Shown here piece by piece: positions 3,589 to 9,597 of a stretch of 64,000 nucleotides of DNA. Made by a program: the position numbers and the translations under genes. This DNA is from Candidatus Poribacteria bacterium (GTDB taxonomy: Bacteria; Poribacteria; WGA-4E; WGA-3G): NCBI GenBank assembly GCA_958295945.1, contig OY282386.1:248001-312000 (forward strand), given 5' to 3'. The notes below the pieces were generated by a model. It was given only the letters and a program-made list of their open reading frames with translations, was not told the origin of the DNA and searched no databases. Within the stretch, counting starts at the first letter, position 1, and each line of letters begins with the position of its first letter.

Positions 3589-4386
3589 TTAATAACCTTT
3601 AATTTTTGACCAGGTAGTTGTAAGTTTCCCCGCTGGTTCAATATCAGCCGTCTGTTCTAATCCTTGATTCATAAGTGTATCCAAATCATTTTCGGATAAA
3701 ACTGTATTGAAAATAACAAAGTCGTCAACTATACCTGAGAAAAACTCACCCCATTGCGCATGTTGTCCAGTTTCAAGATAAATACCGAATAGGAATGGTT
3801 TGTCTGTTAGTGGGTTCCGCCCTAAGTTTGCTGCGGTAACTCCGGAACCAATTTGTTTAGCGTCTAGATATATTCCAAATTCTTCCCCATCATAGGTGGC
3901 AGCAACATGGTGCCATTCAGTATCAGGATTCCAAGCAGCATCTATATAGTGAAGCGATCCACCTGGATTATGTGTGTGGTGTCTGATCATATTACCATCC
4001 CACCAAAAACCGGGTGCCCAATCATCTTTTGTTACGACAGCCATGCCTCCTGCAGGAACTTTACTTAATTTGTACCAAAATGCAATGGTGTGTTCCGCAC
4101 CAACGTTCAGTGATTCGTGGTGATCGATTTCAACATAATCATCAGTTCCATCAAGTTGCAAAGCCTTACCAAACTTACCATTGACCCATTCTGCTCCACC
4201 GTGGATTGTCCCGCTATTGTCATTCGCAGAGGAATCTTGGACGGTATTTCCGTTGCCTTCATCAAAAAGCAATATCGTAACGCTATCTTCAATATCAATT
4301 GCACTAAGACTTATGTTAACAAACATAACACAAAAAATCATGATACTGACATATAATAGTGGAGATTTTGTAATAGTAGTATTCAT
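3589..4386 (-). CDS. Secreted LamG-domain (concanavalin A-like) protein with C-terminal W-motif tag
   Basis: Extracellular carbohydrate- or protein-binding candidate. The start is set by AGGAGG at 4396-4401, nine bases before the ATG at 4386; a longer frame lacks such a site. The 265-residue product begins with a signal peptide (hydrophobic run ending near LSA). One LamG/Laminin_G_3 jelly-roll fills most of the rest, including a W-H-H-V-A-A-T-Y-D-G strand and IDLYLDA-like elements. It ends in KLTTTWSKIK plus GY. The same ending occurs in three other secreted proteins of the window. No catalytic residues are seen. Confidence 0.82.
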   Translation of the reverse strand: MNTTITKSPLLYVSIMIFCVMFVNISLSAIDIEDSVTILLFDEGNGNTVQDSSANDNSGTIHGGAEWVNGKFGKALQLDGTDDYVEIDHHESLNVGAEHTIAFWYKLSKVPAGGMAVVTKDDWAPGFWWDGNMIRHHTHNPGGSLHYIDAAWNPDTEWHHVAATYDGEEFGIYLDAKQIGSGVTAANLGRNPLTDKPFLFGIYLETGQHAQWGEFFSGIVDDFVIFNTVLSENDLDTLMNQGLEQTADIEPAGKLTTTWSKIKGY

Positions 4387-4505
4387 CTGATTATTCCTCC
4401 TTAATATTATCAAAAGATTAAGCTTGTTTTCTTATTGTTAAATTTATGTGTTGAGTTTCAGTTTGTATTTATAGTGGAATGGACAATTAATAGGACACGT
4501 CTCAG

Positions 4506-5097: not shown

Positions 5098-5164
5098 GTT
5101 CTTTTTTTAATGAATACACTATCCATCAGAAGTCTCTTCAGATATATTGACAGGGAGAATTGAA

Positions 5165-5935
5165 ATGGAAAGAATATTAATTTTTGTTCTGTGTACGACA
5201 CTTATATTTACATTTTCTTCTGTTGTTGAAGCAATTAAGGACGATGCAATGGTACTTTATCTGTCGTTTGATGAGGGTAAGGGGAATGATGTAGAAGATC
5301 TTAGTGGCAAAAGTAATGATGGTGCTCTTGAAGGTGATGTTAAATGGATGCATAACGGCAAAATAAGATCAGCAGTGTATTTTGATGAACAAGTTCAACA
5401 AGGCGTAGTTGCAGTCAAAGCGTCAAATAGTTTGGCGATTACCAAGAGTTTTACGATGGAAGTATGGATATACCCACAGAGCGTTGGTGAATATCGCAAT
5501 GTACGTGGACAGGCAGATCCTCATACATATTATTTGAGTCTGCATCAAGGCAAACCTTCAGTATGGATTGGAAGTGTTGGCGCAGGTGGACGCACCTGGA
5601 ATAGTGCAAAAAACATAATTTCACAGAATAGATGGTCGCACGTTGCCGCTGTCTACGAGTTCAATAAAGAACTTCGGATTTATATAAACGGTGAACTTGA
5701 CGAAACACACAAGTTGGAAGGAGAGATTCCTGTTTCTCAAGCAGACCACTGGTTTGGTAATCGGTTAGATGGCGCATGGCCTTATAAGGGTATGCTTGAT
5801 GAATTTGTTATCTATAACCGTGTTCTGACGAAAACTGAGATCAAGCAGGATATGGATCAGGTTCTGAGTGTGTCTCCTTTAGAGAAAGCAGCAACGACTT
5901 GGGGGATGCTCAAGAGAGATAGAAATGTTGACTGA
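5165..5935 (+). CDS. Secreted LamG-domain protein 2 with C-terminal W-motif tag
   Basis: The start at ATG 5165 is supported by GGGAG at 5153-5157. A signal peptide (hydrophobic run ending around SSVVEA) is followed by one LamG/Laminin_G_3 domain opening with LYLSFDEGKGNDVEDLSG and containing a W-S-H-V-A-A-V-Y strand. The product is 256 residues and ends KAATTWGMLK plus RDRNVD, matching the tag of the LamG protein at 3.6-4.4 kb. The next gene starts inside it with an 11-bp overlap, implying translational coupling. Ligand unknown. Confidence 0.82.
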   Translation: MERILIFVLCTTLIFTFSSVVEAIKDDAMVLYLSFDEGKGNDVEDLSGKSNDGALEGDVKWMHNGKIRSAVYFDEQVQQGVVAVKASNSLAITKSFTMEVWIYPQSVGEYRNVRGQADPHTYYLSLHQGKPSVWIGSVGAGGRTWNSAKNIISQNRWSHVAAVYEFNKELRIYINGELDETHKLEGEIPVSQADHWFGNRLDGAWPYKGMLDEFVIYNRVLTKTEIKQDMDQVLSVSPLEKAATTWGMLKRDRNVD

Positions 5936-6910: not shown

Positions 6911-7708
6911 ATGAGCAAGTTAAGATTCGCATGCCATCTAATTCAGTTTGGCGGTGAGCAGAGAGATAATCCCGAAAAAGTATTGCATGAAGTTGCGGAG
7001 GCTAGTTGGGAAGGTGTGGAAAGTGTTCCTATTGATGGTCCAGTAAATCTGATTGAAATGGCAACACTTGCACGTAGTTTGGGGTTACACATCGTCAACG
7101 CAGGTGGTGCTGGACTTGATAGAGTTAGGTTCAACGTAACACTTGGAAATTACGCAGCAGAGGTACCCGCACTGCGACGTAGTGAATGGGGTGGTGCTGA
7201 TCCAAGTGATAGTGATATAGAAAATGGTGCGCGAACACTTGATGATATTCTTGCATATTGTGATGCACATCAAATCAAAGGATTCCATCACGCACATCTT
7301 GGCACATTGATTGAGACGGTTGAAGATGCAGAACGGTTATTATCCGTTGCTCCAAGCCTTTGGTTACTGTATGACACAGGTCACATGCTTGCAGCAGGCA
7401 GCGATCCGATGAAGGTCTTTGATAGTGAACTCTTACGCAATCGAATTGGACATGTACATCTCAAAGACTGTCATGCAGATGACCCCGATTCATGGAATTA
7501 TAGAACCCAACGTTTTGGTGAAAAGGCGCGCTTCGCAGAACTTGGTGCAGGTAATCTTGGACTTGATGTTAAAGCAGTGCTTGAAGGACTTGAATCTGTT
7601 CAATATGATGGATGGGTTTCAGTAGAACTGGATCGACCATATCCTCCACGTCCACCGGCTGAAGCTGCGAAAGTAAATCGAGAATATCTGCGGAGTTTAG
7701 GTTATTGA
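6911..7708 (+). CDS. Sugar phosphate isomerase/epimerase (AP endonuclease 2-type TIM barrel)
   Basis: The 265 residues match the xylose isomerase-like TIM-barrel family, which isomerises or epimerises sugars, inositols or keto-acids using a divalent metal. Visible elements are the strand GFHHAHLGT (about 118-126), WLLYDTGHMLAAG (aspartate and histidine metal ligands), GHVHLKDCH and, near the end, GWVSVELDRPYPP (metal Glu). TAAGGAG precedes the ATG. The AAA ATPase gene starts 17 bp after its stop, so it may share a transcript with the ATPase cassette, though no functional link is obvious. Confidence 0.8.
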   Translation: MSKLRFACHLIQFGGEQRDNPEKVLHEVAEASWEGVESVPIDGPVNLIEMATLARSLGLHIVNAGGAGLDRVRFNVTLGNYAAEVPALRRSEWGGADPSDSDIENGARTLDDILAYCDAHQIKGFHHAHLGTLIETVEDAERLLSVAPSLWLLYDTGHMLAAGSDPMKVFDSELLRNRIGHVHLKDCHADDPDSWNYRTQRFGEKARFAELGAGNLGLDVKAVLEGLESVQYDGWVSVELDRPYPPRPPAEAAKVNREYLRSLGY

Positions 7709-7724: not shown

Positions 7725-9023
7725 ATGTTAAAACGTATCAAAATTCAAGGATACAAATCACTTGTGGATCTTGATTTAAAATTAGAACCACTATGTGTAC
7801 TTGTAGGTCCCAACGCATCAGGCAAAAGCAATTTTCTTGATGCGTTGCAACTGTTATCACAGTTGGCAACCTGCCATACATTAGAAGAAGCATTTGACCC
7901 ACCATATCGTGGTCATCCCTTGGAATCATTTACTTTTGGAGATGAAGGAATCAAGAGTATTCTGAAAAAGGAGAAAGTTTCTTTCAGTATAGAAGTAGAT
8001 GTTAACCTTTCCGATACTGTTATTGAGACAGTCAATAAACGTATTCAGGAATTAAGGGAAACCACAAAGAATGCTCAAAATGACAAGAAACCTGTTAACG
8101 AGAAATATTTGCGGTATCGTATTGAGATTGAGATGTTACCAGAGCAAGGATTTATCAGGGTGGCTGATGAATATCTTGCAGCACTTAGTGCAAATGGAGA
8201 ACCTAAAAGAAACAGAAAACCATTTTTAGAACGGATTCGGAACAGGCTACACTTGCGAATGGAGGGACAATCACATCCACTCTACTATGAACGTTATCTT
8301 GACTACAGTATTCTTTCTCGGCCACATTATCCACCACATTATCCACATTTAACAGCTATGCAGCAAGAGTTGGCAAACTGGTTAACATTCTACCTTGAAC
8401 CGAGAGAGCAAATGAGGCAGCCAAATCCTGTAAAGGCAGTTCACGATATAGGATCCATGGGTGAGGACATCGCTGCCTTTCTAAATACACTGAAAGCTCA
8501 AAACAAACGACAGTTTGAGTCGGTAGAAAAGTCACTGAATGCAATGATTCCATCCATTACTGGTATTGAGGTAAGTGTAAATGACTTAGGTGAAGTTGAA
8601 TTGGATATTCGTGAAGGTGAAAAACACATTTCCGCAAGAGTATTATCTGAAGGAACACTGAGGATATTAGGATTATTAGCAATGGTCGGATCTGAAGATC
8701 CACCAACCTTGATAGGATTTGAAGAACCGGAGAATGGGATTCATCCAGTCAGGATTAAGCGAATTGCACGGTTTTTGGAAGCCCGTATGTTACTTGAAGA
8801 TATTCAATTCCTTGTCACAACCCATTCATCCCTTCTTCCAGATCTCATACCACCCGAATCTCTATTTGTTTGTCGTAAAGTAGATGGCAAAACAGAAATT
8901 GAACCATTTACAATGATGAATGTCGGTCCCTTATGGAAAAGGTCTGATATTAAGATAGCGTTGGATAGTGAAAACTCATTATCTCCATCAGAACGTATCT
9001 TACGGGGAGATTTTGATGCGTAA
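7725..9023 (+). CDS. AAA/ABC-type ATPase (RecF/SMC-like, OLD-family style)
   Basis: 432 residues with a RecF-like opening (IKIQGYKSLVDLDL), Walker A GPNASGKSN at 28-36, a helical insert of about 200 residues, an ABC signature LSEGT at 307-311, Walker B with GFEEPE at 331-336, and a switch histidine in TTHSS at about 367. This is the AAA_21/AAA_15 layout seen in OLD, PARIS AriA, RloA and Septu ATPases. No nuclease domain is fused. The next gene overlaps by 8 bp and encodes a TOPRIM-like protein, so the two probably form a two-subunit system. A defence role is inferred from architecture only. Confidence 0.85.
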   Translation: MLKRIKIQGYKSLVDLDLKLEPLCVLVGPNASGKSNFLDALQLLSQLATCHTLEEAFDPPYRGHPLESFTFGDEGIKSILKKEKVSFSIEVDVNLSDTVIETVNKRIQELRETTKNAQNDKKPVNEKYLRYRIEIEMLPEQGFIRVADEYLAALSANGEPKRNRKPFLERIRNRLHLRMEGQSHPLYYERYLDYSILSRPHYPPHYPHLTAMQQELANWLTFYLEPREQMRQPNPVKAVHDIGSMGEDIAAFLNTLKAQNKRQFESVEKSLNAMIPSITGIEVSVNDLGEVELDIREGEKHISARVLSEGTLRILGLLAMVGSEDPPTLIGFEEPENGIHPVRIKRIARFLEARMLLEDIQFLVTTHSSLLPDLIPPESLFVCRKVDGKTEIEPFTMMNVGPLWKRSDIKIALDSENSLSPSERILRGDFDA

Positions 9024-9597
9024 TATCAATCTATTTGTTGAAGATGTAGCACATGAGGATTTTCTTACTGCATTAATTAGAAGGTTTGCTGAGGAATACA
9101 ATATTGAGATTAATTTCAAAGCATCCAGTGTACGCGGTGGTCGTGGCACTGTACTCTCTGAATTGAAACAATTTGTAAGAGATTTACAACAGAATAAGGA
9201 AGTTCTTCCAGATCTTGTAATTGTTGGAACAGATAGTAATTGTAAAGGTCTAATGGAAAGAGAAAATGAGATCAACCGTGTTACCACTGATATTAGTGAA
9301 ATTGTAATCAATATGATCCCTGATCCACATATTGAAAGATGGTTTCTACTTGATTCTGAAGCATTCAAAACTGTTTATGGAATGGGTTGTGCTAAACCAG
9401 ATTACAAATGTGAAAGAGATCGATATAAGAAAAGGTTATTAAATTCAATATTTCATGCGACTAAGACACCACCGATTGACGGGACAGAACGATTGGAAGA
9501 ACTCGTCAATGCTATGGATCTACAGCGCATTGAACAGTCTGATAGATCAATGGGTAGGTTTCTTACTGCTCTTAATCGTCAATTTAGAAGTTGGTAA
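9016..9597 (+). CDS. TOPRIM-like (DUF4276/RloB-type) partner of the AAA ATPase
   Basis: The start at 9016 is chosen because GGGGAGA (9004-9010) lies just before it and the ATG overlaps the ATPase stop (ATGCGTAA). The 193 residues show the family pattern: an N-terminal strand LFVEDVAHEDFL with the conserved acidic residue, a central strand VIVGTDSN, and PDPHIERWFLLD, which resembles the I-E-x-W-L-L-x-D signature of DUF4276/RloB proteins. TOPRIM-like subunits act as metal-dependent nucleases in OLD and PARIS systems. Catalysis here is not certain because the D-x-D strand is replaced by GTDSN. Confidence 0.65.
   Translation: MRNINLFVEDVAHEDFLTALIRRFAEEYNIEINFKASSVRGGRGTVLSELKQFVRDLQQNKEVLPDLVIVGTDSNCKGLMERENEINRVTTDISEIVINMIPDPHIERWFLLDSEAFKTVYGMGCAKPDYKCERDRYKKRLLNSIFHATKTPPIDGTERLEELVNAMDLQRIEQSDRSMGRFLTALNRQFRSW

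Follow-up and report, generated by a model that had tools for sequence, protein, structure and literature searches.

What is known of HEC-01, a candidate defence family, comes mainly from its genomic context; the acronym stands for Hma-embedded candidate (PMC12111858), and no paper naming HEC-01 was found in our literature search. HEC-04 (IbfA) is an ATPase–TOPRIM fusion which is active against coliphages (PMC12111858). PARIS is recognised by the combination of an AAA_15 or AAA_21 ATPase with a DUF4435 protein of at least 27 bits (PMC9122126). In the OLD nucleases, the two-metal site consists of E400, D455 and D457 (metal A) and E404, T506 and E508 (metal B), plus K562; single metal-ligand mutants of the B. 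pseudomallei protein, including D457A, still cleave DNA (PMC6755086).

We compared with these systems a two-gene locus of a poribacterial genome. The window (the whole stretch of DNA that was analysed, 64,000 nucleotides) is a segment of a single 5.34-Mb contig. The two genes, their junction and their neighbours are listed below, in window positions.

6911 to 7708, + strand: upstream neighbour, xylose-isomerase-like TIM barrel; flanks the slot in Poribacteria, outside the system
7725 to 9023, + strand: gene 1, SMC/Rad50/OLD-type ABC ATPase (AAA_21; PADLOC HEC-01A), 432 amino acids
7806 to 7829, + strand: Walker A of gene 1, G28-P-N-A-S-G-K-S35, assigned from the sequence and from invariance in relatives
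9016 to 9597, + strand: gene 2, DUF4276, Toprim-like putative nuclease (HEC-01B), 193 amino acids from the ATG at 9016
9016 to 9023, + strand: 8-nt overlap ATGCGTAA, gene 2 start codon and gene 1 stop codon
9662 to 11278, − strand: downstream neighbour, gamma-glutamyltranspeptidase-like (GGT-like); flanks the slot in Poribacteria, outside the system

Gene 1 extends from the ATG at 7725 to the stop codon TAA at 9023, and the isomerase ends 16 nt before it. The initial annotation had described an OLD-style ATPase with Walker A, ABC signature and Walker B; all of these motifs were located and are kept in 52 relatives. Besides Walker A, gene 1 contains the signature S308-E-G-T, Walker B followed by E333/E334, and the H367 switch, and the four elements are invariant or nearly so in the 52 relatives. 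Pfam identifies AAA_21 (4.6e-33, 116 bits) and AAA_15 (1.3e-19, 71.6 bits). The AF2 model has a pLDDT of 89 and, in the VIA structure comparison, matches SMC/Rad50 heads (Z 20–23) as well as the PtuA proteins of retrons and Septu (Z ~20).

The mechanical ORF of gene 2 begins at a GTG at 8968, whereas relatives conserve the ATG at 9016. This ATG sits within GATGCGTAA and overlaps the stop of gene 1, as had been read from the sequence at the outset; the overlap is 8 nt long. The overlap is the same in most relatives and is likely to result in translational coupling. Because nearly all relatives, across many phyla, show this gene order and mostly this overlap as well, the pair is not a chance arrangement. 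No promoter or terminator at the locus scored above shuffled sequence. Among the 49 other window ORFs of at least 150 amino acids, the sole PADLOC match is to a CARF-domain model (5.9e-14), in agreement with the earlier description of an otherwise metabolic region; the survey for other defence genes proposed there brought up this one match, and the slot is no defence island. The window also contains two related, secreted-looking ORFs (3589–4413, − strand, and 5147–5935, + strand; ~27% alike), the second of which matches Laminin_G_3.

The best PADLOC matches are HEC-01A for gene 1 (9.1e-60) and HEC-01B for gene 2 (1.6e-7; 29.5 bits, with no curated cut-off given). Judged by these profile matches, the pair belongs to HEC-01 of PADLOC, a kind already known, of which this copy is assigned as an additional member. 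This member has a conserved DxN site in gene 2 and an unusual loss pattern. Gene 2 scores 31.2 bits with Pfam DUF4276 (cut-off 30.2), and when the gene-2 family was compared by hhalign with eight other poribacterial DUF4276 proteins, the probability was 97%. The profile searches suggested by the initial annotation had a divided outcome: DUF4276 was matched, while no DUF4435 or PARIS AriB match to gene 2 was obtained at E values up to 1, and hhalign with eight DUF4435 proteins gave a non-significant 0.7%. Gene 1, as an AAA_15 or AAA_21 ATPase, corresponds to AriA; AriB is a DUF4435 protein, and membership of PARIS was rejected on the lack of such a match in gene 2. The PARIS-like layout proposed earlier is retained as architecture and dropped as membership. 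Class 1 and 2 OLD systems (single protein, GajB helicase) were also rejected, on gene layout. A profile search of gene 2 against PDB sequences returned only designed proteins and response regulators (E 0.17 or worse), and an EcoRI-like assignment was treated as chance (Pfam 18.1 bits, below the 22-bit cut-off; PDB E 0.6).

The AlphaFold2 model of gene 2, based on an alignment of 60 sequences, has a pLDDT of 96.4. Foldseek found no PDB match below E 0.001. In VIA, the best match is the Toprim domain of B. pseudomallei OLD (6nk8; Z 8.4, 160 residues, rmsd 4.2 Å), which is the sole match at Z of at least 8, with background at Z 7–8 close by. X. campestris OLD (6njw) follows at Z 7.2 over 162 residues; lumazine synthases reach Z 7.3 over fewer residues (123–129). 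A Toprim-like fold is the best-supported reading of the model, supported though short of proof. It had been considered that the second protein might lack such a fold, and the model speaks against this at a score near background; the described two-gene layout of an ATPase plus a TOPRIM-like protein probably stands. The candidate active-site elements of gene 2 are the following.

9040 to 9042, + strand: E9, Toprim glutamate, about E400 of B. pseudomallei OLD by aligned range
9232 to 9240, + strand: D73-S-N75, DxN variant of the Toprim DxD; D73 in 60 of 60 sequences (partly ascertained by the search), N75 in 59 of 60
9325 to 9342, + strand: P104-H-I-E107-R-W109 motif; E107 is a candidate metal-B ligand

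Equivalences with OLD residues were drawn from the aligned range, motif spacing and profile alignment. VIA aligns gene 2 residues 1–193 with OLD 392–593, which places E9 at about E400. The invariant Glu that follows strand 1 in Toprim is represented by E9, present in 59 of the 60 relatives (the remaining sequence is truncated) and also common to the paralogues. The DxD is not preserved: the first Asp is retained and the second is Asn, while the paralogous poribacterial DUF4276 proteins mostly have DxD. The remark that the aspartate strand is unusual is therefore correct, and it applies to the whole clade. The ExW within PHIERW is common to most DUF4276 proteins. E107 and K138 are found in 60 of 60 sequences and may correspond to OLD E508 and K562, respectively; relatives were retrieved with patterns that included PHIERW or a stretch ending at D73, so the invariance of those residues is partly ascertained, and N75, E9 and K138 lie outside the patterns.

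A search of 85 genomes from the phylum recovered gene 1 from 45 of them and gene 2 from 30. The slot between the isomerase and the GGT-like gene contains the full pair, the ATPase alone (11 genomes: G052, G054, G056, G058, G061, G063, G066, G068, G072, G073 and G074), a wreck (G037, G053, G064 and G078), an empty junction of ~50 bp (G033, G045, G049 and G084) or unrelated genes (G041, G044 and G083). Gene 2 is interrupted by a stop in G082 and G038, and gene 1 by a frameshift in G057; because many of the slot genomes are fragmented MAGs, an isolated frameshift may reflect misassembly. The pair is found without an adjoining isomerase in G013, G029, G034 and G043. We rejected the slot as a defence hotspot, its alternative contents being WD40 repeats, a phosphodiesterase, an ECF sigma factor and an ABC exporter. 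One genome (G027) has two AAA+DUF4276 pairs of the window family in tandem (L063:5501–9449), with a 3′ fragment of the isomerase between them and ATPases 60% and 67% identical to gene 1 of the window, an arrangement that we read as duplication at the slot or insertion into it.

Downstream of the solo ATPases, the initial codons of gene 2 can still be recognised. Examples of such remnants are MRNISLFVEDETYEIFLAA joined to QRRFRTW (G054), MRNISLFVEDITHEIF (G074 and G066), TRKIDRFVEDDAHKIFL (G072) and MGSLSLF (G068 and G073). In the tree of the flanking proteins, the genomes with a solo ATPase do not form a single clade (p-AU 3e-58), and the presence of gene 2 requires at least eight changes. Remnant types and tree positions together suggest that gene 2 was lost by at least four independent deletions in the 11 genomes. 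The solo ATPases retain their catalytic residues, the exceptions being a conservative E309D (one clade) and L312F (G061). By simple pairwise Nei–Gojobori estimates, dN/dS among solos which share a remnant is 0.09–0.12 (G058, G063 and G072), 0.08–0.15 (G056, G068 and G073) and 0.13–0.20 (G052, G066 and G074), and solo pairs with dS of 0.4–0.56 give 0.08–0.12. Paired ATPases are similar to the solos (0.06–0.21); for gene 2, two groups have a median of ~0.23 and a third group one of 0.11. A profile search of G073 found no DUF4276 at all, in a genome that is 95% complete and with a profile that scores this subfamily low, which speaks against a trans-acting DUF4276 partner in this genome. The ATPase tree conflicts with the flank tree for some genomes; G054, for example, groups with different relatives in each, and this disagreement suggests exchange or replacement of alleles at the locus.

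A scan of the genome collection yielded 80 loci, of which 24 are from Poribacteria; the other 56 are spread over many phyla, among them Nitrospirota, Desulfobacterota, Latescibacterota, Acidobacteriota, Chloroflexota and Pseudomonadota. Gene 2 identity in the 56 is mostly 30–51%. Gene 1 lies directly upstream of gene 2 in all but two of them (L137 and L150, which are partial gene-2 matches), and elsewhere the overlap is usually the same. Across the 80 loci, isomerase and GGT-like neighbours are seen in Poribacteria only. The initial annotation had named strict core status and conserved synteny with the isomerase as grounds against a defence role: within Poribacteria the locus is indeed syntenic, but its presence is far from core and the isomerase link vanishes outside the phylum. 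The Hma context to which the HEC name refers is found in two Latescibacterota, with HmaB immediately after gene 2 (L100 and L102), and in a gammaproteobacterium, with HmaA after gene 2 (L103, 1415 bits), though not at the window copy. L100 and L102 also encode, upstream of the pair and HmaB, a protein of ~1,200 amino acids (L100:1–3528 and L102:1–3621; 74% identical to each other) that, at the thresholds applied, matches nothing in Pfam or PADLOC. From the neighbourhoods of relatives, 173 genes were scanned as a pool and gave scattered type I, II and III restriction–modification (RM), Thoeris and MADS-type matches; in the Pfam tally, which covers the first 89 of the 173, the genes are mostly metabolic. 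Gene 2 had no match in plasmids, phages or viral contigs.

The host genome contains four additional AAA+DUF4276 pairs with DxD-type sites, at about the following positions.

766.7–768.5 kb: AAA+DUF4276 pair (L162)
3286.6–3288.5 kb: AAA+DUF4276 pair (L163)
2655.1–2657.0 kb: AAA+DUF4276 pair (L164), DUF4276 under the Pfam cut-off
740.2–742.0 kb: AAA+DUF4276 pair (L165), DUF4276 under the Pfam cut-off

On these matches, the host appears to carry an arsenal of this type. In G053 (L167) and G066 (L169), paralogous pairs lie beside HsdR-like genes, and in G066 beside an HsdS-like gene too (by-eye reading), as though they were part of a type I restriction locus. TnpB-like proteins were recognised by sequence reading near AAA+DUF4276 pairs (L165:1415–2596 and L169:5401–6642).

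We consider it probable (roughly 60%) that the pair is a chromosomal conflict or defence cassette of the HEC-01 type, an ATP-gated nuclease with a costly and dispensable effector; we infer the defence role from relatives and context only. Gene 1 would be an ABC-type ATPase which dimerises via ATP and serves as sensor and scaffold, and gene 2, produced by coupled translation, a small two-metal Toprim-like nuclease which the ATPase holds inactive or recruits. On sensing a phage or other invader, gene 2 would be released or activated and would cut nucleic acid (DNA or tRNA), stopping the infection, probably at a cost to the cell itself. Several parts of this model are predictions: that the two proteins form a complex, that gene 2 is an active nuclease, what triggers it and what it cuts, that the cell dies, and that the pair acts against phage. 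Counted in favour are the HEC-01A/B matches, co-inheritance across phyla, the Hma, type I/III RM, Thoeris and MADS-like neighbours in some relatives, the HsdS/HsdR-like genes beside paralogues, the four further host pairs and the OLD Toprim as best structural match; patchy occupancy, wrecks and the repeated loss of gene 2 suit a costly effector. Counted against are the absence of a significant Foldseek match, the proximity of the lumazine synthases, the lack of a defence island at the poribacterial slot with mostly metabolic neighbours elsewhere, and the lack of gene-2 copies on plasmids or phages; in addition, catalysis could be altered or lost with DxN in place of DxD.

The 11 genomes with an ATPase and no gene 2 are not predicted by a strict two-part sensor–effector model. 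Survival of the ATPase alone may be read in three ways: another nuclease acts in trans, the ATPase has an independent job, or it acts as an antidote. Tentatively, and at less than even odds, we propose that the ATPase has a selected function independent of its partner, that the DxN Toprim nuclease is removable, and that lineages repeatedly disarm the system by deleting it; the kept ATPase would then serve as a sensor on its own, as an antidote to incoming copies of the nuclease or as a host factor.

It is unlikely that the ATPase has primarily a cellular job of its own, such as chromosome handling, with an optional, often discarded nuclease and defence not the main role. The solo ATPases, intact in their catalytic motifs and with dN/dS like that of paired ones (0.08–0.20 among solos sharing a remnant), are consistent with such a job, as are G073 with its lack of any DUF4276 in the profile search and the archaeal OLD-family protein Cran1, which has a cell-cycle role (PMC12796447). 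However, many sister genomes lack the ATPase or have it wrecked or replaced, so it is not essential, the pair stays together outside Poribacteria, and a solo ATPase may employ another nuclease in trans. Distinctly doubtful is a gene 2 that is no longer a nuclease and has become a regulatory or nucleic-acid-binding Toprim-like subunit. N75 in 59 of 60 relatives, against Asp in most paralogues, points in this direction, but E9, D73 and E107 are kept (E107, being in the search motif, is partly ascertained), and the OLD single mutants, D457A included, still cut DNA (PMC6755086). We regard as improbable a toxin–antitoxin-like arrangement, in which gene 2 is the toxin, gene 1 the antidote, and solo ATPases are retained against incoming gene 2 copies: in its favour, gene 2 alone was lost at least four times, the reverse state of an intact gene 2 beside a gene 1 broken by a frameshift was seen in one MAG only (G057), and conflicts between the ATPase and flank trees suggest continuing exchange of copies. 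Against it, deletion of either gene was non-toxic in the architecturally similar PARIS (PMC9122126), and a pure antidote should be under intermittent selection, yet dN/dS is steadily near 0.1. That the pair is an ordinary nuclease/ATPase with a housekeeping role, linked to the isomerase operon, as the 16-nt spacing and syntenic poribacterial flanks might indicate, is largely refuted and very improbable given the patchy presence, the empty slots beside an intact isomerase, the missing isomerase linkage outside the phylum, the multiple paralogous pairs and the links to Hma and RM.

The fixed locus with pair, ATPase only, wreck or empty slot is a natural experiment, by which it becomes testable how ATPase and nuclease divide their tasks; the conserved DxN Toprim site allows catalysis to be tested through single substitutions.

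Compared with known systems, gene 1 shares its SMC-like ATPase fold with PtuA of Septu and retrons (Z ~20), whose partner is the HNH nuclease PtuB and not a Toprim protein. The NCBIfam model of the MADS ATPase MAD3 matches gene 1 at 145 bits, far under its curated cut-off of 420 bits, and there are no MADS genes among the window ORFs. HEC-04 (IbfA) is similar in its embedded-candidate origin and domain pairing, but it is one fused protein, and HEC-04 is absent among the best PADLOC matches listed. OLD nucleases and Gabija GajA also join an ABC ATPase to a Toprim domain, and the gene-2 model is nearest to the OLD Toprim; here, however, the genes are separate, the DxD is altered, and the neighbours are the isomerase and the GGT-like protein instead of a UvrD-like helicase GajB. 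PARIS (AriA and AriB) shares the two-gene layout of an ABC ATPase and a Toprim-type protein, and the AriA model matches gene 1 at 1.5e-31. The closest resemblance is to HEC-01, with adjacent AAA_21 ATPase and DUF4276 genes and close relatives directly beside HmaA or HmaB; the window pair differs in having a distant member as gene 2, with DxN for DxD, in standing without an adjoining Hma, and in that its poribacterial relatives often retain the ATPase alone.
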